32,803 nucleotides of DNA. Origin: Myxococcales bacterium (lineage in GTDB: Bacteria > Myxococcota_A > UBA9042). Below, piece after piece: positions 972 through 12,916 of this stretch. Location of the stretch: NCBI GenBank assembly GCA_023954815.1, contig JAGSHB010000056.1, positions 1-32,803 of the forward strand, given 5' to 3'. The notes under the pieces are model-generated. The model had not been told where the DNA came from. It saw only the letters and a program-made list of their open reading frames with translations, and made no database searches. The first letter of the stretch is position 1; each line of letters opens with the position of its first letter. The position numbers were made by a program, and so were the translations under genes.

Positions 972-1081
972 GGTGGACTCCGAAAGTAGGCCGGACCGCA
1001 ACGAAGGGTCGGGCGTTTATTGGGCTCGGTAGCGTGGTGTTTATTTTCGGCGGCGACAAGGCGTTTTCGACAGGATTGACC

Positions 1082-1125
1082 AAAAAAAAGTGCCCCCGGC
1101 ACAACGGGCGAGTCGTACCGGGGGC
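1082..1125 (-). terminator. Intrinsic terminator after the Cys-rich lipoprotein
   Basis: Read on the minus strand, an 11-bp GC-rich stem (1115-1125 with 1092-1102, one G-U pair) closes a 12-base loop and is followed by eight uridines (1082-1089). It lies 37 bases beyond the stop codon of the lipoprotein gene and about 110 bases before thrS. It most likely ends the lipoprotein transcript. A role as an attenuator in a thrS leader is possible, but I see no T-box features. Confidence 0.9.
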
Positions 1126-1161
1126 GAGCCGCGCCGAAGCGCGAGCAGGGTAGGGTTTGCG

Positions 1162-2445
1162 CTACTTATCCGTGACGCACTTACCGAGCGCTGCCTTGCA
1201 AGCGTCGGAGCTGGTGTCGCCCTTGGCGCCGCAGGTCAGCGCCGGCTTGAGCAGCTCGGCCGAGGCCTTCTTGCTCTTGGCCAAGCAGCCCAGCACGCAG
1301 GCAGCTTCCTTGGCGTCTTCGGGGCAGTCACTGACGCATTGAATCGTGGCGCCGCACGTTGCCGTGCCGTCGGGCTCCGTGCACGTGAGGTACGAAGCGC
1401 CGCACTCTGGCAGATCAGCGCCGCAACCGAGGGCGAACTCCATGAATTGCGCTGCGCTGCTCGAGTCGCCCTTCATGATGCAACCCTGGACGCAGGCGTC
1501 GTCGTCGTCCTTGCAAGCATCGACGCACCCAGCGATTTTGCCGCACTTATCCGATCCAGCTGGAGCCATGCACGCCGCAAGCGTCGCGCCGCAACCCGCT
1601 TCGAACTCAGCGCCACAACCCGACGCCTGCATGAACAGGCCGACCGATGCCTTGTCGATCTCTTGCGCGCATTTTCCAACGCACGAGAGCTTGGCTACCT
1701 CCGTCTTTTCGTCGTCGCACTTTTCGGCGCAGGGGATGCCCTCGACGCACTTCTTGCTGCCCGTCTTGCCGCCGGTGAGGCACTGGATGGACTCCTTGCC
1801 GCACTCCGCGTCCTTGCCCTTCGCCTGGCAAGCCAACATGGCCTTGAACTCTTTCTTGCCGTCCTCGGTGACTGCGTCGAAGCACTTGGACAAGCAGACG
1901 AACTGCCCAGTCTTGCCGGCCTGACAAGCCTCGCCGCAGCCCAAGAGGCTGCCGCAAATCTCCTTGCCGTGGGTTTTGCTCTCCACACAAGTAAAGAACT
2001 CACCGCTGCACTTGGTCGAGATGCAGTCGTTGAGGCAGTCGGGGTCTTTGCTGGCGGCGCAGGCTGGCACACAGGTATCTTTCGCGCAGGTCAACAGCGG
2101 CGCGCCGGGAAGCAGTGCTTCTTTGGATGCATCGCCCAGGCATGCCGTCTCGCAGCCCTTTTCGAACTTCTTTGGCGTGCATGCTTCGAGAACACAGTCG
2201 GCCAGCGTTGGGCACGTCGTGTACGTCGGAGCCTTGCCTGCGTCCGCTGCACCAGCGTCAGCACCTGTCGTGGTGTCGGACCCGGTCGCGGCGTCCGTGC
2301 CTGCGGTCGTGTCACTGCCGCTTGCCGAGTCGCCAGTCGCCGCTGCATCGGATGCTGTGGTTTTCTTCTCTGTCGTTTCTCCGCCGCAAGCCACAGCCAG
2401 GGCGGCCATCAGTAGCAGGCTCATACATTTTGCAAGCATATTCAT
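1162..2445 (-). CDS. Cysteine-module lipoprotein
   Basis: This is a 427-residue exported lipoprotein of unknown function. The start at 2445 is chosen because GGGAG precedes it and it gives a compact signal peptide ending LAVAC, with the lipidated cysteine at residue 20. An upstream in-frame ATG at 2541 would put 32 odd residues before the signal. Residues 21-77 are a flexible linker of Asp, Thr, Ala and Gly. From residue 78 the protein has 44 cysteines, an even number, arranged in four clear modules that start at residues 146, 215, 285 and 348, a partial fifth at 416 and a looser N-terminal copy. Each module follows C-x6-C-x8/10-C-x5-C-x3-C-x6-11-C-x3-C-x17/18-C. The likely result is a chain of small disulfide-bonded domains held on the outer membrane or cell surface. 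The gene is monocistronic between two terminators. I know of no named family with this spacing. Confidence 0.85.
   Translation of the reverse strand: MNMLAKCMSLLLMAALAVACGGETTEKKTTASDAAATGDSASGSDTTAGTDAATGSDTTTGADAGAADAGKAPTYTTCPTLADCVLEACTPKKFEKGCETACLGDASKEALLPGAPLLTCAKDTCVPACAASKDPDCLNDCISTKCSGEFFTCVESKTHGKEICGSLLGCGEACQAGKTGQFVCLSKCFDAVTEDGKKEFKAMLACQAKGKDAECGKESIQCLTGGKTGSKKCVEGIPCAEKCDDEKTEVAKLSCVGKCAQEIDKASVGLFMQASGCGAEFEAGCGATLAACMAPAGSDKCGKIAGCVDACKDDDDACVQGCIMKGDSSSAAQFMEFALGCGADLPECGASYLTCTEPDGTATCGATIQCVSDCPEDAKEAACVLGCLAKSKKASAELLKPALTCGAKGDTSSDACKAALGKCVTDK
1177..2010 (-). repeat. Tandem 8-cysteine protein modules
   Basis: Four full repeats of 63-70 codons and a partial fifth lie within the lipoprotein gene, beginning at about 2010, 1803, 1593, 1404 and 1200 when read on the minus strand. 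Conservation is in cysteine spacing (x6, x5, x3, x3 and x17/18 nearly invariant) rather than in the other residues. This suggests old duplications kept for the disulfide scaffold. Confidence 0.8.
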
Positions 2446-2543
2446 CGTCGATCTCCCAGAGGCGTGCGCACAACCGGCCATCAGGGCCGAGTAGAGATGC
2501 GCGGGTTGGTGCACCTGTAGCATCGCCATGCTGCGGCTCATGG

Positions 2544-2584
2544 CAAAAAAACAAAGACTGCGCTCGGTGTTCGAGCGCAGTCTT
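2544..2584 (-). terminator. Intrinsic terminator after the Spy-like gene
   Basis: A perfect 13-bp stem (2554-2566 with 2572-2584) closes a 5-base loop and, on the minus strand, is followed by a U-rich tail (TTTGTTTTTTT). It sits 33 bases beyond the stop codon of the 2617-3222 gene and separates it from the cysteine-module lipoprotein. Confidence 0.92.
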
Positions 2585-2616
2585 CGCTTCGCGTTTCCGG
2601 GGGGAGCGCGAGTCAG

Positions 2617-3222
2617 CTATCGAACATCACCCTGAGCTCCGGCGGGAGGTGGGTAGTCGCCGGCAGCGTCGCCGCCACGTTGATGCCGACCACGCCGTCC
2701 GTGCCAGCCCTTGCCGCCGCGTTTGCCATGCCCCCAATGCCGCCCCATGTGGCGACGGAACTTGTGGTGCGCGACCATCAATTGAGCTTGCTGCTTGGGG
2801 TTGAGTAGCTGCTTTATCGCCGAAACTTGGGCCTTGTGGAGCTTCTTCAGCTTCGCCCGTGTCTTCACGATGGTGTTGAGCGCCTGGGCGTAGGCGCGCT
2901 GGTCATTGCTGTCCTCTTTGAGCAGCACACGCAGAGCGCGATGACTCTGTTTCATCTCCTTTCGCAAGGGACGCTTCTTTTGGCGGAAAGCGGTCATGAG
3001 CTTTTCGACGCGCTGGGCCTTGTCCTCCGTCAGCTGCATTTTGTCGCGCAGTAGCTCGCCGAAGCGTGCCTTCATCTTGGCGCGGAACTTCGCGCGTTGC
3101 TCCTTAGTGAAACGCTTGTGGGGGTGGGCACCATCACCCGGACCAGCCGAAGCGAGCAGTGGCACGGCGGTTAGTGCGACAGCCGCGATGGCCAGCACTG
3201 CTACGAGGGATCGAATCTTCAT
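2617..3222 (-). CDS. Spy/CpxP-like periplasmic LTxxQ-type protein
   Basis: This is a 201-residue periplasmic protein of the Spy/CpxP/CnrX kind, whose members act as ATP-independent chaperones or metal-stress sensors. A Sec signal peptide ends at ASA (residue 26). The body is strongly helical and basic, with two LTxxQ-like turns: LTEDKAQ at about residue 64 and LNPKQQ at about residue 141. The last 45 residues are rich in His, Gly and Arg, which suggests metal binding or a disordered tail. AGGAG precedes the ATG with good spacing. The gene has its own terminator. Two small hairpins lie in the leader, one overlapping the ribosome site. The family assignment rests on layout and motifs rather than close identity. 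Confidence 0.75.
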   Translation of the reverse strand: MKIRSLVAVLAIAAVALTAVPLLASAGPGDGAHPHKRFTKEQRAKFRAKMKARFGELLRDKMQLTEDKAQRVEKLMTAFRQKKRPLRKEMKQSHRALRVLLKEDSNDQRAYAQALNTIVKTRAKLKKLHKAQVSAIKQLLNPKQQAQLMVAHHKFRRHMGRHWGHGKRGGKGWHGRRGRHQRGGDAAGDYPPPAGAQGDVR

Positions 3223-3230
3223 GAGAGCAC

Positions 3231-3260
3231 TCCTGATTGAGGAAAGGACGCTGCGTCCTT
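3231..3260 (-). promoter_or_regulatory. Leader hairpins before the Spy-like gene
   Basis: On the minus strand the leader can form AAGGACG-CAG-CGTCCTT (3244-3260) and then TCCT-CAATC-AGGA (3231-3243). The second places the Shine-Dalgarno AGGA in a 4-bp stem. Such short anti-SD pairings occur by chance, so regulation of translation here is only a suggestion. Confidence 0.3.
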
Positions 3261-3296
3261 GTTCACGTCTCTAGATGCCGTTGTGCCCAAGGACGT

Positions 3297-3320
3297 AAAA
3301 ACAAAAACGCGCAGTATCGC
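3297..3320 (-). terminator. Weak possible terminator after the reductase-like gene
   Basis: On the minus strand just past the stop at 3324, a very short GCG/CGC stem is followed by TTTTTGTTTTT (3297-3307). The stem is too short for confidence, but the T-rich tract is in the right place. Confidence 0.3.
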
Positions 3321-3323
3321 CTT

Positions 3324-4079
3324 TTACCCGTGCCCAGTCGCCGCGAGCAGGCCCCCATGGACGGGGGTCTGAATGCCGCGCTGCAGCGCCTCTTGCACAA
3401 ACCAGCCGTTGCGCCAGGGCCACTCCTTCACCGCGCCTTTGTAATCGGCGATGCCAAGCGAGAAGCCACAGAGGCGCTCCACGAGCGGCGCCAACTCCAG
3501 CGACACCCCAAGGTGTGCGCCGCCCACCCGGTTCATCTCATCGACTAGGTCCTGCAGCTCATCACGATGACGCGCCACAATAGTGCCCACCGGAGCCCCA
3601 TAGCGTTCGCACAGCAAGCCAAAGGCGCTATTCCAGATGAGTTTTTCCAGCTCTACCTCTCGAAACTGCTGGTCGGCAACAGCGATGGCTGGCACATCCA
3701 AACGCTGAAGCCACCGCACGACAGCGGAGGCGCGCGGGCCGGAAAATGGCGATTCGCTACCTGGCGTCAGATCATCGCCGCGCTTGGCGACCGCAAAGAA
3801 CAGCAACCCCCTGGTCGCACCTGTGAGCCCGTTGTCGGCCAGCCATGAGCGCAACATCCCGTTTTGCAGAAATACGAGATCCTCACGGCGAGCGGCAGGC
3901 ACCTTCTCCAGCACTGCCGCCAAGTCGTCGTTGCGCGTCGCCACCAAAATAGGGCCACTGCCGTCGGCCGTCAGGGCTTCCCAGCCGGTCTTGCGACGAA
4001 TCAGTGCACAGGGGACGCCGCGCATGGCAGCTCGCGTTTCTAGGGCCTGACCGACACGCCCGCCTCCGATGATGATCAT
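3324..4079 (-). CDS. Ketopantoate reductase-like (ApbA/PanE) NADP-binding protein
   Basis: This 251-residue protein resembles 2-dehydropantoate 2-reductase, which makes pantoate for coenzyme A. The start at 4079 is supported by AAGGAG about 6 bases upstream and by the dinucleotide-binding strand MIIIGGGRVG directly after it; a longer frame back to 4163 has neither. LQNGM near residue 97 matches the ApbA N-domain. KLIWNSAFGLL followed by YGAPVG matches the start of the ApbA C-domain, including the Lys and Asn of the family's active-site helix. The protein is somewhat shorter than typical PanE (about 300 residues), and the segment after the Rossmann fold is compressed. It has no pantothenate neighbours, so the substrate may differ. 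Confidence 0.7.
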   Translation of the reverse strand: MIIIGGGRVGQALETRAAMRGVPCALIRRKTGWEALTADGSGPILVATRNDDLAAVLEKVPAARREDLVFLQNGMLRSWLADNGLTGATRGLLFFAVAKRGDDLTPGSESPFSGPRASAVVRWLQRLDVPAIAVADQQFREVELEKLIWNSAFGLLCERYGAPVGTIVARHRDELQDLVDEMNRVGGAHLGVSLELAPLVERLCGFSLGIADYKGAVKEWPWRNGWFVQEALQRGIQTPVHGGLLAATGHG

Positions 4080-4421
4080 GACCACTCCTTGCCGCGAAAT
4101 CATAGCTCGCCAGATGCTGTACCGCATTGGCGCGCTCGACGGAACATACGTTGGTCGACCCAAGGCTGTGGGGGGAAGTCGACGCGGTCGCCGTGCGTTG
4201 CGTGTTGTTCCCGTCGTCCTACTCTTCAGTTTGAATCATGGCGCCACGGACGGCGTTACGAGCTCACAGCGTGCCTGCTAGCGGTGCCAAGTGTCACAAA
4301 AGTGTGTTGGCCTCGTCAGAGTCTCGCAGTTCGCTTGCGTTGCGCCAGGGTGCTTCGCAGACTGTCGCTGGATGCACGCAGGCCCACGAATGCAGGCCTC
4401 AAATCAGGACGGAATCACTCG
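4080..4421. other. Divergent intergenic region
   Basis: This is 342 bases between the divergent reductase-like and START genes. I see no convincing ORF, RNA gene or strong promoter. Open frames here lack ribosome sites or run out of phase into the START gene. It presumably carries both promoters. Confidence 0.5.
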
Positions 4422-5132
4422 ATGTCACAAGGTCTCTCCCGCAACATGTCTCTGCTCCTGATCATGGCTGCGTTGGTCGCAAGTGCGTCTACCGCATTCG
4501 CAGCACCAAAGTGGCAATTCGTTACCTCGGGCGAGGGCGTACGCGTCTACAACTTCCCAGAAAAAGGGCGCTCCGTCCCGCGGTTTCGCGGTGTCGCGAC
4601 TATCGATGCGCCGGCGCTGCAGCTGCTCGCCATCTTGGGTGATGTCCAGCGTTCGTGTGAGTGGAACACTGCATGCAAGCATTCGATCTTGCTTTCCAGA
4701 ACGGACGATCTGCGCATGGTCTTCCACAATCGACTCAAGGCACCGTGGCCGGTCAGCGACCGCGACGCCATCTTGAAGACCAACGCCTCTATCAGCGCCG
4801 ACGGGAGCGTCGTACGCGCCACCTTTAGGGCGATACGGTACGCCAAGCGCCCGCCGGCGAGTGGTGTTGTCCGGTTTCCGCGGCTGATCGGCCAGTACAA
4901 GATGACGGTCATCAGCCCAACACGGACGCGCGTGGTCTACACCATCGACAGCGATTCTGGCGGTTGGCTGCCGGGCTGGATGGTCCGCTATGCGACCAAA
5001 AATGTACCGATTGGGACCCTCGCTGGCCTACGCAAACAGGCGCGTCGCACCCGCGGTCAATACGCTGCTTTTATCGCCAAGCACACGCCTAAGAAAGCCA
5101 AACGGCAGGGTGTGGTAGCGACGCCGAAGTAG
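4422..5132 (+). CDS. Periplasmic START-domain protein A
   Basis: This 236-residue exported protein carries a START/lipid-binding helix-grip fold. The start at 4422 gives a signal peptide cleaved near TAFA/AP (residues 27-28); a second Met at residue 9 is an alternative. The mature part has RFRGVA, the C-x5-C pair C79/C85, APWPVSDRD (107-115), GVVRFPRLIG and a C-terminal SGGWLPGW segment followed by TLAGLRKQ. These are shared in order with the protein at 22820-23542. The family normally binds lipids or other hydrophobic ligands in a deep pocket. A periplasmic form could carry lipids between membranes, but the ligand cannot be read from sequence. The two cysteines probably form a disulfide after export. 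Confidence 0.8.
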   Translation: MSQGLSRNMSLLLIMAALVASASTAFAAPKWQFVTSGEGVRVYNFPEKGRSVPRFRGVATIDAPALQLLAILGDVQRSCEWNTACKHSILLSRTDDLRMVFHNRLKAPWPVSDRDAILKTNASISADGSVVRATFRAIRYAKRPPASGVVRFPRLIGQYKMTVISPTRTRVVYTIDSDSGGWLPGWMVRYATKNVPIGTLAGLRKQARRTRGQYAAFIAKHTPKKAKRQGVVATPK

Positions 5133-6862: not shown

Positions 6863-7885
6863 CTAGCTCGTGGCTTTAGCCAGCTTCCCAACCAGCGATG
6901 GTCCGCCATAGATAAGGCCCGTATAGATCTGAACCAAACTGGCTCCAGCATCGAGTTTGGCTTTGGCATCGTCGGGCGTCATCACGCCACCCACTGCGAT
7001 AATTGGCCGCTTCCCATCGGTACGCCGGTGGATTTCGCTGACCATTCGAGTCGCACGCTCTGTCAGCGGCGCCCCACTGAGACCGCCTGTTTGTGTGCGG
7101 TCAGCGGACTTCAGTCCCGAGCGGTCTAGGGTGGTGTTGGTGGCGATGATGCCGTCGATTCCGGCGCGATCGATGGCCTCTAGGGCGTCGTCCAGATCGG
7201 CATCGTCCAAATCTGGCGCCAGCTTGACCAACAGTGGCATGGGCCCGCCCCGTTCCTGACGCAGCTCGTCTCTACGCTGCACCACCGCTCGCAACAGCGC
7301 TTCGAGGCGGTCGCCCGTCTGCAATTTGCGTAGCCCTGGCGTGTTGGGTGAGCTGACGTTGACGGTGAGATAGTCCGCGTACTGCGCGAGCTCGTCCATC
7401 ACAGCCAAGTAGTCCTGCGCGGCCTCTTCGAGCGGGGTGTCTTTGTTCTTGCCGAAGTTGACGCCAACGATGAGCCCGTCGGGCTTGGGTTGATCGAGAT
7501 GTCTGGCGGCAAATCCCATCCCGCGACCTGGAAACCCCATCCGATTGATGACCGCTTGATCTTCCGGCAGCCGAAACACCCGAGGGAGCGGATTGCCAGG
7601 CTGTGCACGAGGAGTGATCGTGCCCACCTCCACATGGCCAAAGCCCATGGCTGCGAAGCCGCGCCAAGCGGTCGCGTCCTTGTCGAACCCCGCTGCGAGG
7701 CCGATTTTGTTGGGAAATCGCAGGCCAAGCACCTCTGTTGGGGCCTCGACCCGCGCACCAAAGGCGAGCCGGAGAGCCTGCCGACCAGGACCACTGCGCG
7801 ACATGCGCGCCAAGCTGCCCACAGCCAGGTGGTGAGCCCGCTCGGCGTCGAGTTGAAACAGCAGCGCTCGCATCAGGCTGTACAT
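6863..7885 (-). CDS. pyrD: Dihydroorotate dehydrogenase, class 2 (quinone)
   Basis: This 340-residue enzyme oxidises dihydroorotate to orotate, passing electrons to membrane quinone, the fourth step of UMP synthesis. Class 2 is shown by the N-terminal amphipathic helices (residues 1-25) that dip into the membrane, and by NVSSPNTPGLR (176-186), which carries the catalytic serine of this class. GLAAGFDKD (62-70), NRMGF, GVNFGKN and the late FMN-phosphate region VGGVMTPDDA are all present. Its ATG overlaps the stop of the pyrF-pyrE fusion by one base (TGATG), so the two are translationally coupled. An open frame reaches back to 7957 inside the upstream gene but is not the start. No clear terminator lies between it and the convergent 5828-6832 gene. 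Confidence 0.96.
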   Translation of the reverse strand: MYSLMRALLFQLDAERAHHLAVGSLARMSRSGPGRQALRLAFGARVEAPTEVLGLRFPNKIGLAAGFDKDATAWRGFAAMGFGHVEVGTITPRAQPGNPLPRVFRLPEDQAVINRMGFPGRGMGFAARHLDQPKPDGLIVGVNFGKNKDTPLEEAAQDYLAVMDELAQYADYLTVNVSSPNTPGLRKLQTGDRLEALLRAVVQRRDELRQERGGPMPLLVKLAPDLDDADLDDALEAIDRAGIDGIIATNTTLDRSGLKSADRTQTGGLSGAPLTERATRMVSEIHRRTDGKRPIIAVGGVMTPDDAKAKLDAGASLVQIYTGLIYGGPSLVGKLAKATS

Positions 7886-9360
7886 CAGACGCTCTCCTGC
7901 AGGAAGGTGCGCACCGCGGTGGCTTGGTTGATGCTCACGGCCCCCGACGCCTGCCAATGGTCAAGCAGCTCCGGTAGTTGGAACACCGCGTGTAGTCGGA
8001 CGCCATCCTCAGCCAAACGCGCTTGCGCACCGCTGCCACGATCGACGAGCACCACCAGATCACCAACGTGCAGGCCGGCGTCGCGCAGGGTTGGCAGGGC
8101 TTCGCGCGCGCTGGTGCCGCGGGTCGCCAGATCATCGATCACGACGGCGGTCTCACCGGCTTTGAAGGGACCTTCAATGGCTGCCCCGGTGCCGTGGGCT
8201 TTCCGCTGTTTGCGTGGGTAGATAAGTGGCCATTGGCCAGCGAGTGATACAGCCGTGCCGATGGGTAGGCCCGCGTAGGGCAGGGCGGCGAGGCGATCGA
8301 ACTGCAGACCCTCCAGGCGAGCCGCGTAGGCTTGTGCGGCAAGCCCAAGCAGCGCTGGGTCGCCGGAAAGCTGGCGTAGATCGAGGTAGATGGGTGAGGT
8401 GAGGCCCGATTTCAGCGTGAAGCTGCCAAATCGAACGCAGCCCGCCGTGAGCAGCCCGTCAGCGAGGGTTTGCCCCTGATCGGTCGCCAGGAATCCGGCC
8501 TTCGTCCGATCGCCCATCTGATCTTGCGCCGTGGCCTTCGTGTTGTCGCCATGGGATAGCGCCGTCGCTTGCACCAGCGTCGACGTGCGCGCCGCGGATA
8601 TCTGGGCCACCAGTGCCGCCGCCGCACGAGCTGGATCCGGTGCACGGGCGATGCCCCGTGACACGCTAATGAGCAGGCCGAGGCCATCAGGCCGGACTGC
8701 GGCCGCGACGGTCTCCTGCAGCGACCCACCTTGCGCACCGACCCCTGGCGCCAAAATCCACGCGTCTGGGTTTACACGCCGTACCGCGGGCAAAGCGCCG
8801 GGAGCGGTCGCGCCAACAACGAGACCACAGCGCGCCGCGTCCCAGTTGCGCACCGCGGTGGCGACGGTCACGTACATCGGGTCGCCTGTCTCAGTCGCGA
8901 GCTCCTGCAGTTCGGCTGCGCCCGGGTTGGAGGTCCGGCAGAGCACAAAAACCCCGCGGTCCTGATGGGCCAGAAACGGCGCGATGCTGTCTCGTCCGAG
9001 GTAGGGGTGCAGGGTCACCGCACCGGCCCCTAACACATCGAAGCAAGCCGTGGCGTATGCGGCAGCAGTCGAGGCGATATCGCCGCGCTTTGCGTCCAAA
9101 ATCACTGGAATCTCGGGCTCCAAGTCCGAAATCAGATCGCCGAGTGCAGCCACGCCCGGCGCGCCAAGCGCCTCGAAAAACGCAGCATTTGGCTTGAACG
9201 CACACGCGTAGGGTCGCGTCGCAGCGACGATGTTTCGGCAGTAGGTCAGCGCCGCCTCAGCAGTCGGCGTCGACAAGTCCGCGAGATGAGGGTCTAACCC
9301 GACACACAGGAGCGAGCCGGTGGCAACTGCACGTCGACTCAGACGGTCGAAGAAGGTCAT
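7885..9360 (-). CDS. pyrF/pyrE: Bifunctional OMP decarboxylase / orotate phosphoribosyltransferase
   Basis: This 491-residue fusion performs the last two steps to UMP. Residues 1 to about 265 are an OMP decarboxylase of the PyrF-2 type, with FKPNAAFFE (55-63) and the catalytic LDAKRGDI (D89, K91, D94). After a polar linker (about 266-288), residues 290-491 are orotate phosphoribosyltransferase, with the flexible-loop sequence YPRKQRKAHG (381-390) and the PRPP-binding VVIDDLATRGTS (406-417). The order is the reverse of the animal UMP synthase; the same order is known from cyanobacteria and trypanosomatids. The start at 9360 is chosen because GGAGC precedes it; an ATG at 9375 has no ribosome site. 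Fusion allows orotidylate to be consumed as soon as it forms. Confidence 0.95.
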   Translation of the reverse strand: MTFFDRLSRRAVATGSLLCVGLDPHLADLSTPTAEAALTYCRNIVAATRPYACAFKPNAAFFEALGAPGVAALGDLISDLEPEIPVILDAKRGDIASTAAAYATACFDVLGAGAVTLHPYLGRDSIAPFLAHQDRGVFVLCRTSNPGAAELQELATETGDPMYVTVATAVRNWDAARCGLVVGATAPGALPAVRRVNPDAWILAPGVGAQGGSLQETVAAAVRPDGLGLLISVSRGIARAPDPARAAAALVAQISAARTSTLVQATALSHGDNTKATAQDQMGDRTKAGFLATDQGQTLADGLLTAGCVRFGSFTLKSGLTSPIYLDLRQLSGDPALLGLAAQAYAARLEGLQFDRLAALPYAGLPIGTAVSLAGQWPLIYPRKQRKAHGTGAAIEGPFKAGETAVVIDDLATRGTSAREALPTLRDAGLHVGDLVVLVDRGSGAQARLAEDGVRLHAVFQLPELLDHWQASGAVSINQATAVRTFLQESV

Positions 9361-9439
9361 GGGGTAGCGCTCCATTCGCGGGGCAGTGGACAGGTCTTAG
9401 CGGCCCGCTGCGGCAGTAATGACAGGACGCAGCACGCGA

Positions 9440-10420
9440 CTATGCCTTGCCGAGAACCATGGCTAGCAGGGCCATCCGCACGTACATGCCGTATTCCATC
9501 TGCCGGAAGTAGGCGGCACGCGGATCGGTGTCGACTTCCATGGAAATTTCCCCGACACGGGGCAGGGGATGCATCAGCACCATCTGCGGCCGAGCGCGGG
9601 CCAGGATTTCGGGCGTGATGACATAGGCATCTTTGACGCGGGCGTAGTGATCCGGGTCGTCGAAGCGCTCTTTTTGCACGCGTGTCACGTACAGCACGTC
9701 GCTGCGGGGGAGCACTTCCTCGAGTTCCCGGTGCGCCTCCCACGGGATGCCGCGCTCATCGAGTTCCGCCAGAATCTTGTCTGGGAAGGCCAAACTCTCG
9801 GGTGACACGAAGTTCAGCTTGACGTCGTACATGCTCAGCAACCGCGCCAACGAATGGACTGTCCGCCCATTTTTCAGGTCGCCCAGCAGCGTGATTGTCA
9901 GGCCATCTACGCGCCCGGACTCCTCAACGATGGTGAAGAGATCCAGCAGCGCCTGGGTCGGGTGCTCGCCGATCCCGTCGCCCGCGTTGATGATCGGTTT
10001 TCTTGCGTAGCGCGCAGCCAGTTTCGCTGCGCCCACCTCTGGATGCCGGAGCACGATGACATCGGCGTAGCACTCCAGCGAGCGCACCGTGTCGGGCAGG
10101 CTCTCACCCTTGGAAACCGACGAGTAACGCACCTCGCTGATGGGAATCACGCTGCCGCCAAGTCGCTCCATCGCCGCCGTGAAGCTCGAAGCGGTGCGTG
10201 TCGAGGGCTCGTAGAACAGGCTGGCTAGAATCTTGCCCTTGAGTAGGTCGAAGCTGCCGATGCGCTCAACCATCTCCCGCATCTCGCGGGCGACTCCGAA
10301 AATGTACGACAGGTCCGCTCGTCGAAATTGCGCGACCTCCAAGATGTCCTGACCGTAAAAAGCCGTGTCCCGCCTGTCGCCGAGCGGCAGGTGTGGGCTC
10401 TGAGTGCGGTTCGCAGCCAT
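9440..10420 (-). CDS. pyrB: Aspartate carbamoyltransferase
   Basis: This 326-residue catalytic subunit condenses carbamoyl phosphate with aspartate, the committed step of pyrimidine synthesis. The carbamoyl-phosphate motif is [12 protein letters not shown] (69-80), followed by the KGES loop, [11 protein letters not shown] and the C-domain MHPLPR. The [10 protein letters not shown] form is closer to the eukaryotic CAD type than to the E. coli STRTRLSF form. AAGGGAG lies about 7 bases before the ATG at 10420. No pyrI regulatory subunit is adjacent, so allosteric control by that subunit is not expected here. The gene is 79 bases upstream of the pyrF-pyrE fusion and 79 bases downstream of the protease gene, with no obvious terminator or attenuator in either gap. 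Confidence 0.96.
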
Positions 10421-10499
10421 GGTCGCTCCCTTTTGCATCGTCACAGTCGAAAACGCCGAGAATCCGGGCCGATCGCTGTGGTCGTGGGGTCGGAACTGT

Positions 10500-12209
10500 C
10501 TACTTGTTGCAGAGGGCCAGATTTTCACCAGATTGCGGCACGGTCGGCAATACATCGACCTCGATTTCGTCGATCCGTACGTCCTTTAGCGAGTGGTTGA
10601 GCAGCAGCATCCAGACGTTGCCGCCTTGGTACGGGATGCACTTGCCAGCGAGCGTGATCGACTGCCACTTGCTCTTGTTCTTGTCGGGTTCGGGCACCAC
10701 CGTGGCGTGCGCAAAGACCTTGCCGCCGTCGATTCCGGAGATCGTCACCGGTGCATTGAACTGCAGCGCGAGCGTAAGATTCGGATTATTGAAGGTTCCC
10801 GATGATTCAGCATGCCAGCGGATACGGACCGCCTGCGTGCCCTGCTTCACGGGCAATCGCCACTGCAGGTACGCCGGCACGCCGAACTTGTAGCCGCCAC
10901 CGAGCTTGCCGCCGCCCTCGACTTGGAAGTCCGTCTTGTCCGGGCTGTTGTTCTTGGACCAGGTCTTCAGCTCTTTACCGCGCAGGCAACCGATCAGGCC
11001 GTATTTCTTCAGCAGCAGCTCCATCTGCCCAGCCTTGGTGCTGTCGAGCTTTTCAGCCTCAGCGATAATGAGTTTAGCGGCAGCTTCAAAGCTGGTGTGA
11101 TTGGTGAAGGTCAGCAGGGCCCGCAGGATCACGTGATCGGTCAGTTGGCTACCTACCTTCTTGCGAATCGCCCACAGCGCGCTGGAGAAGATTCGGCCGT
11201 CGGCATGGACCTGCCCCGTTAAGTCATCAGGACATTTGCGCATGACCGAGAGATCGCGCACGCGGTGGGCGCCAGCAAACGCGAGGCCGTAGGTGCCGAT
11301 GATGGGGTACTCAATCATCGCCGCCGCGAAGTAGTCCGCGAAGCCCTCATTCATCGCACCAGGCTGATTATTCAGGCCGTGAGCGTCGGCAAAGAGCCCG
11401 CTGAGGCGCGTGGTTCCAACCATGGCGTGGGTGTACTCATGATAGATGACCGTCGCGTCGTAGCTGAAGTCGGTCTTTTCGTACTGGCCAAAGATGATGT
11501 GGCCTTTGTCGCGCTCTGGGAGCTGAAAAGCCTTGAATCCTTTGGGGGGCATGAACGCCGCGTTTGGGTAGCCAGTCCACCCGCCAGCGAGGCCATGGGT
11601 CTTGGCGATTTCGGGGTCGTACCAGAGGTTGACATTGACCAGCGCCGGAAGCGGATGGTCGAGTTCCGTGAGGCCGTGCACATTCTTGAAATACGCGTGA
11701 ATCTGATTGACGTGGTGGTACATCATCAGCTCGGCAAAGCCGTCGTTCGGATCGCTCATGTCCGTCGGTGGTTTGATAGAGAGGTAGTGGCCGTCCGCGT
11801 CTGGGACCACCGTCGCCACTTCCTTGCACAGTGCTCCGAAGGCGTATCCGAGGGACGCCATGGTCTGGCCACCTTTCTCGTTGAGGCAGTTCTTGACCGA
11901 TGCGTAGGGGCCCGTGAGCGTGCCGTCGGCGGTTGTCGGCCGCACCAATGTGACCTGAGCTGTGGTCAGCTGATCGGTCGTGGGATCGTGGAAATAGACC
12001 TTGGCTTTGGGTGCCTCGGCCACAACGGGTTTACCGGCGTCGACAGCGGCATCCGCAACGGCGTCCGTCCCGGCGGCATCGGCTGTGGATTGCGCGGGCG
12101 GCTGCGTCGGTTCCGTGCCACAAGCCACGGCGATCGATGCGACTATGCAGCAAGCTGCCGCGGCGCGAATCCACCAGAAAACTGGGCGTTTCGTTACAAA
12201 CCTGCTCAT
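10500..12209 (-). CDS. Gluzincin metalloprotease lipoprotein (M4/M36-like)
   Basis: This 569-residue exported zinc protease has a signal peptide ending IAVAC (lipid Cys about residue 30). An Ala/Asp-rich linker follows to about residue 60. The zinc site is HEYTH (257-261), with the third ligand and its context in MNEGFADYF (E288), as in thermolysin and fungalysin relatives. Residues from about 435 to the end form a beta-rich C-terminal domain, probably for substrate or surface binding. The protein has no propeptide of its own; a separate gene directly upstream encodes one, and the two overlap by four bases (ATGA). The start at 12209 uses AGGATGAA as ribosome site inside that gene. The long open frame back to 12734 is a shadow of the propeptide gene. 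Substrate unknown. Confidence 0.85.
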
Positions 12210-12916
12210 CGTTTCATCCTGTCGCCCATCCGAACGATGCGGCCGTCTGAACTCGCCACGACCACGCGCAACAATTGCGGCTTCAACCCTCCGATGAGGT
12301 CCACCGCGAAGCCGTCTACAGCGCCGCCGAATTGCGCGTCGATAACGCGGGTGACGTGCTTGACCGCCCATCCGGTGCCGCCAGCGGCCAGCAGGGCCTT
12401 GCGCACCGCGAGTTGGCTGCTGAGGGCACCGCGCTTGACGCCGTTGACCGGAACGGCGTCGCTCGACAGGTGCAAGACAACGCCGTCTGGCGTCATCGAC
12501 ACCGCCACAAATCGCCCAAGAACCGGCGTGCCAGCGTGACTCTGTGCGAATCTCGCGACGCGGCGACCGTGCGCAACACTGACGCGGTCGAGCCGTAGGT
12601 CGCGCTGCTTCACGCCGCCAAGGAGCGCTTCGTGTGCGCGTAGGAAGTGCCTTGCGCGGGCTTCGTACGTCTTGCCCTTCGTCAGCACGCGCATGCCGGC
12701 GACCACATGGGGGCCTGGCTGGCTGATCGACCAATGGGCGCTCGTCCGTGGCGTACGTTTTTGCAGCTCGGCGAGGGTCTGCTGAGCTTGTTGCCTCGCT
12801 GAGGCGGGAGCGCGGGAGACGGTCACCTTTTTGGCCGTTCGAGGCGCGGACGCGATGGCAGGGCTCGGCAAGGCGAGGCCGAGCAGGGCGGCGGTGGTGG
12901 CGATCAGACGATTCAT
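12206..12916 (-). CDS. Secreted FTP/PepSY propeptide-like protein
   Basis: This 236-residue protein has a Sec signal peptide (cut near AIASA/P, residue 24) and no lipobox. Residues 85-155 match the fungalysin/thermolysin propeptide (FTP) pattern, most clearly GTPVLGRFVAVSMTPDG followed by VVLHLSSDAVPV. Residues about 163-228 resemble a PepSY domain. There is no zinc motif and no catalytic domain. In M4 and M36 proteases these domains form the N-terminal prosegment that helps the enzyme fold and keeps it inactive. Here the prosegment is a separate protein whose stop overlaps the protease start by four bases. The inferred role is a dedicated folding helper and inhibitor acting in trans. GGAGG precedes the ATG at 12916. 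Confidence 0.8.
   Translation of the reverse strand: MNRLIATTAALLGLALPSPAIASAPRTAKKVTVSRAPASARQQAQQTLAELQKRTPRTSAHWSISQPGPHVVAGMRVLTKGKTYEARARHFLRAHEALLGGVKQRDLRLDRVSVAHGRRVARFAQSHAGTPVLGRFVAVSMTPDGVVLHLSSDAVPVNGVKRGALSSQLAVRKALLAAGGTGWAVKHVTRVIDAQFGGAVDGFAVDLIGGLKPQLLRVVVASSDGRIVRMGDRMKR

Follow-up and report, generated by a model that had tools for sequence, protein, structure and literature searches.

Proteases of the thermolysin and fungalysin type are textbook examples of zymogens, with the propeptide on the same chain as the enzyme. In a stretch of 32,803 nucleotides from a Myxococcales bacterium (contig JAGSHB010000056.1, in the following called the window) two neighbouring genes on the reverse strand raise the question whether such a zymogen can be encoded in two separate parts and what its bearer might gain from this.

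The prosegment gene and the protease gene

The protease gene P0001 (10500–12209, reverse strand) encodes a protein of 569 amino acids, which according to its ORF and Pfam is M36-like and without a prosegment; it scored above the cut-off with both M36 (1.6e-8, 34.6 bits, cut-off 23.3) and M4_C (8.6e-8). The chain starts with a lipoprotein signal (12120–12209) including the lipobox Cys30 (IAVAC), followed by an Asp/Ala/Pro-rich tether (residues 31–67, 12009–12119), which appears disordered as the AF2 model has a pLDDT of 86 but falls below 50 for residues 1–62. The gluzincin catalytic domain (approximately residues 68–400, 11010–12008) was assigned by fold as well as by Pfam, and the C-terminal beta-rich domain (approximately residues 428–569, 10503–10928), defined with the AF2 model and Foldseek, ends without a MYXO-CTERM tail as judged by the MYXO-CTERM model. 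In an alignment with 20 relatives of P0001 the HEYTH zinc motif (residues 257–261, 11427–11441), the third zinc ligand E288 (11346–11348), H335, D337 and the lipobox Cys30 are unchanged, and P0001 possesses the HEXXH motif, downstream Glu ligand and catalytic His that characterize M36/M4 gluzincins. A Foldseek search with the model matched aureolysin, thermolysin, LasB, vibriolysin and the M36 structure 7qp3 (E 7e-9 to 7e-6; TM 0.55–0.71 normalised by target, over part of the query), and the mature domain shows the thermolysin/fungalysin fold. P0001 is the sole M36 match found in this genome, and with the model of the myxosortase-dependent M36 proteases (NF038112) it reached only 13.5 bits against a cut-off of 1500.

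The second gene, P0002 (12206–12916, reverse strand), encodes 236 amino acids without a catalytic domain and was recognized as a prosegment gene by its ORF and its homology to cis prosegments. Its type I signal peptide (approximately residues 1–25, 12842–12916) was assigned by eye and is disordered in the AF2 model, which has a pLDDT of 89.3. It is followed by an FTP motif (residues 110–152, 12461–12589; PF07504, 5.1e-5, 23.5 bits, cut-off 21), representing the sole FTP match found in this genome, and by a PepSY-like half (approximately residues 158–236, 12209–12445), for which the AF2 fold, Foldseek and a comparison of the junctions are the basis, as Pfam made no PepSY call in P0002, whereas three of 33 relatives were called. 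The model resembles two propeptide chains, one from autoprocessed vibriolysin (3nqy_A, E 6e-7) and one from Aspergillus fungalysin (4k90_B, E 7e-5), and also matches the C-terminal domain of YpeB (5boi). By motif and fold P0002 is a member of the FTP–PepSY prosegment family (Pfam, Foldseek and hhalign); a Pfam scan with E up to 1 returned nothing but FTP and gave no sign of the emfourin, Lif or PopD families.

The original prediction, made from the sequence of the window, had described a prosegment without catalytic part next to a lipidated zinc protease without prosegment, the two genes overlapping by ATGA. ORFs, Pfam and folds agree with this arrangement, the stop of P0002 and the start of P0001 share the 4 nt at 12206–12209, and the proposed lipidation is predicted from an invariant lipobox Cys. 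The assignment of the two genes as a prosegment and its protease is supported.

Conservation, position and origin of the split

In order to see how widespread this arrangement is, homologues of P0001 were gathered in 284 genomes of the phylum as well as in a one-genome-per-species collection, and further loci were added. After removal of duplicates 76 loci remained, comprising 33 split loci, four close homologues cut by contig ends (L004, L033, L023 and L046) and 39 distant homologues. At the 33 split loci, all from Myxococcota, a separate FTP/PepSY ORF is located directly upstream of the protease on the same strand, no prosegment is present on the chain of P0001 itself, each gene has its own export signal and the gap between the genes ranges from -28 to +131 nt, with the overlap of four nucleotides found in nine of them. 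For L004 (genome G138) the partner was found across the contig break. All close homologues with enough upstream contig are split, and fusion was seen only outside the well-supported clade formed by them.

These results also bear on a different explanation of the pair, namely that a sequencing or assembly error has broken one fused gene. A frameshift can indeed generate an ATGA overlap, but the survey for adjacent pairs that had been proposed along with the original prediction recovered the split at 33 loci in independent assemblies, so that it is conserved and not a local frameshift. Moreover, no simple frame change could restore a fused chain, since the two halves are separated by a second signal sequence and a tether. 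We rejected this explanation on the comparative data and regard its probability as practically negligible; the split is far beyond chance. The case that would have spoken against the prediction, close homologues with one fused chain, was looked for and not encountered, fused chains appearing only beyond the split clade.

One chain is nevertheless the rule among the more distant relatives, as the prediction had assumed, since nearly all of the 39 distant homologues carry a prosegment in the same ORF. The N-terminal approximately 200 residues of these fused proteins are homologous to the separate partner: a profile built from split partners only finds the N-termini of 35 of the 39 fused chains (best E 1.6e-35) and no match in shuffled controls, and hhalign aligned the split-partner and fused alignments over 193 columns (99.7%, E 3.6e-27), reaching the last residue of P0002. 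Outside the split clade the nearest homologues found were the fused Myxococcota M36-like proteases, to which the named myxosortase-dependent M36 subfamily (NF038112) is related; they show the same order of pro- and mature part.

A comparison of the junctions shows where the split lies. In 28 of the 33 partners the chain ends 11 residues past a conserved PepSY Gly (23 counted by script, plus five, with sequences such as DGQTG, in which the script had picked a Gly further upstream), and all 33 terminate in R, H, D or K. Since 11–12 residues separate this Gly from the mature core in most of the fused proteins, the partner appears from this comparison to end at the boundary between pro- and mature part, where autoprocessing is expected to cut the fused chains. 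It thus resembles a propeptide that has already been cleaved. We attach no probability to the conserved end, because the sequences are related by descent.

Linkage of the two genes was surveyed in 52 genomes of the window's class; matches to the partner were obtained in 28 of them and matches to the protease also in 28. The strong matches to the partner adjoin their protease wherever the contig permits, and neither an orphan partner nor an orphan protease was found in these 52 genomes once contig ends and a single decayed locus are set aside. Two weak partner matches (G196:C61 and G065:C35) are located inside long frames of the fused type, and G196 has two split pairs with one partner each. 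In a sample of 269 genomes of the phylum the top partner matches were likewise the split loci, and the weaker ones are mostly found inside frames of approximately 560–1580 codons. Two apparent exceptions were rejected: in G138 the protease gene is interrupted by a contig break, and its 5' part is still present downstream of the partner on that contig, and the seemingly lone partner in G148 belongs to the decayed locus, in which a deletion joins remnants of partner and protease. At this locus (L099, G148:C119:19583-20511) most of the partner is joined to the C-terminal domain of the protease and the catalytic domain is deleted; the junction could be an assembly artefact. Besides its two split pairs G196 has a fused-type homologue (contigs C255, C416 and C215), showing that both architectures can coexist.

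Next to the pair the window contains a single ORF of 496 amino acids with PyrF-like and PyrE-like sequences (7885–9375, reverse strand) and, adjoining it, a PyrB-like gene (approximately 9440–10441), a neighbourhood that is kept within the genus. Outside the genus the pair is still together although these pyrimidine genes were not found in its vicinity. Comparison with a relative of the same genus gave rough dN/dS values of 0.28 and 0.17 for the two genes of the pair with dS near saturation, and both look to be under purifying selection as far as such sequence comparison can tell. Within the genus the partner (51% identity) evolves faster than the protease (72%).

In a maximum likelihood tree of the catalytic cores a single branch (SH-aLRT 98) separates all split proteases from the rest. 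In a more careful tree the split clade received a bootstrap of 99 and an SH-aLRT of 99, and a single change was reconstructed in 100% of the bootstrap trees. With an outgroup of fused chains taken from other phyla, the tree is best read as indicating that the split was derived once in Myxococcota from a one-chain ancestor; its root is weakly placed.

A probable change of the membrane anchor

The split goes along with a change of the anchor, as judged from sequence motifs: a C-terminal MYXO-CTERM-type anchor in the fused proteins versus an N-terminal lipobox in the split ones. With lipidation and signal peptides judged by motif only, a lipobox Cys is present in every split protease that could be examined (32 of 32), always followed by a tether of 22–86 residues, and no convincing lipobox was found among the 39 fused proteins. 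The latter have a type I signal, and most complete fused proteins from Myxococcota end with a Cys followed by a hydrophobic stretch and a cluster of Arg, as is typical for MYXO-CTERM. By a simple rule 30 of the 39 fused proteins have such a Cys-TM-Arg tail, and the MYXO-CTERM NCBIfam model matched 14 of 32 fused but none of 35 split proteases. Two hits of the tail heuristic among the split proteases (L059 and L061) were discarded, as they are not MYXO-CTERM by the model and not tail-like by eye. The one-chain ancestor apparently had a C-terminal MYXO-CTERM-type anchor, and we infer that its replacement by an N-terminal one and the split occurred on one and the same branch.

Proteins with MYXO-CTERM are anchored to the cell surface following cleavage by myxosortase (PMC11980579). 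A loss of this system as cause of the anchor change was considered and rejected: nine MYXO-CTERM matches were found in the window's genome and others in further split lineages, so that the change was not forced in this way. A different rationale follows from the order of the domains. If a cis zymogen carried a lipid at its front end, this lipid would be lost together with the propeptide, and an anchor at the N-terminus of the mature enzyme thus needs the propeptide to be on another chain. This is probably the reason for the separate prosegment gene; however, as split, lipobox and loss of the tail represent one event in one clade, their association cannot prove the cause. If the rationale is correct, it suggests a rule according to which a zymogen with an N-terminal propeptide may be anchored at its C-terminus, and N-terminal anchoring is available only if the propeptide is split off.

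The residue at position +2 past the lipobox Cys varies between families. It is Gly, Ala or Ser in most of the window's family, unlike in the split proteases of the families f30 and f43 (L018, L021, L022, L024 and L025), which have Asp at +2 (and +3) and may have a different membrane destination.

Possible function of a prosegment in trans

Taken together, we consider it quite probable that the pair is a natural split zymogen of single origin, consisting of a prosegment acting in trans and an N-terminally lipidated mature protease, and that the split was accompanied by the shift of the anchor. A stricter version, in which the whole clade inherited a 'born-cleaved' zymogen whose prosegment is an obligate foldase and inhibitor in trans and thereby enables the N-terminal lipid anchor in place of a MYXO-CTERM-type one, seems to us evenly balanced between right and wrong. 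The biology of M4/M36 zymogens is the source for the steps that can be proposed, from binding in trans through folding help and inhibition to release. The closely spaced co-directional genes would probably be expressed together and both products exported separately via their own signals. Most likely the prosegment would then bind the folding protease in trans and aid its folding, and its C-terminus would block the active-site cleft, as does the cleaved propeptide in autoprocessed vibriolysin and fungalysin. Release or degradation of the prosegment would give the free enzyme, which would stay tethered to the membrane by the N-terminal lipid on its disordered tether.

The pair shares the prosegment fold, the gluzincin motif and the mature fold with the M36 fungalysins and M4 thermolysin-like proteases that have a cis prosegment, and it differs from them by two genes, separate export signals and a predicted N-terminal lipid anchor; it would need no cleavage step. 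In autoprocessed fungalysin (4K90) and vibriolysin (3NQY/3NQZ) pro- and mature part are two chains of one complex after autocleavage, a state that the pair would resemble from birth. Among separately encoded helpers Lif, a periplasmic steric chaperone dedicated to one enzyme (PMC3352829), would be similar in the way it works; our pair shows the separate gene and one-to-one linkage. The Lif system has an unrelated enzyme, Lif is membrane-based and the lipase is secreted, whereas here the predicted anchor is on the enzyme; moreover, P0002 is homologous to cis prosegments, unlike Lif. No published description of the split pair was found in the literature searched, with most subscription papers outside its scope.

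Three other functions have to be weighed against the split zymogen. The partner might be a dedicated inhibitor or immunity-like protein that keeps a self-folding protease silent in the envelope of its producer. Its C-terminus, which coincides with the pro/mature cut of the fused chains, is what a cleft blocker would show, and the emfourin–protealysin operon, in which a small inhibitor is encoded together with an M4-type protease, offers a precedent (PMC9505478), although emfourin is of another inhibitor family and protealysin is intracellular, whereas P0002 matches FTP and is exported. A mere inhibitor would, however, hardly account for the full FTP and PepSY length being retained, FTP half included, and in the split clade no protease without partner was found where the contig allows a check, which leaves this alternative rather unlikely.

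PopC is a subtilisin-type protease unrelated to P0001. It nevertheless illustrates in the same phylum how a second protein can restrain a protease, as PopC of Myxococcus xanthus is kept in a complex and held back by PopD, which is degraded after the stringent response (PMC6434023), although PopD acts by blocking PopC secretion. By analogy the separation could be mainly regulatory, a view in line with the original prediction, with the level of the partner or its destruction by another protease setting the activity of the anchored enzyme, and separate genes would permit separate turnover. The overlapping or closely spaced co-directional genes rather favour joint expression, no sequence feature points to regulated turnover and the strict association with an N-terminal lipobox would be left unexplained, so that we hold regulation as the main purpose to be clearly improbable. 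Still less probable is that the prosegment is no longer needed and its neighbouring gene a vestige or a periplasmic PepSY protein of unrelated function. The faster evolution of the partner would fit this and PepSY proteins with other roles exist, as the YpeB match recalls, but strict linkage across the class, duplication of the pair in G196, the fixed end point, the rough signal of purifying selection and the joint decay in G148 all argue against it. The split itself, natural, conserved and located at the processing boundary, puts to the test whether propeptide and enzyme need to be linked at all, and it offers a ready two-component system for studies of steric chaperones. It would also be misleading to label the split proteases as lacking a propeptide in annotations.

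A different arrangement was observed in family f32, where a stand-alone FTP/PepSY ORF with a lipobox is located directly upstream of a fused protease that has its own prosegment (L103:882-1959 and 989-5027, G120:C10). A similar stand-alone ORF with lipobox was found at a contig edge (L106:89-1012, reverse strand, G071:C67). From their sequences these free prosegments are candidates for a lipidated inhibitor or foldase acting in trans, and the one beside the fused protease could be an inhibitor of the kind weighed above. In L103 it seems to be the free prosegment that carries the anchor, the mirror image of the pair in the window.
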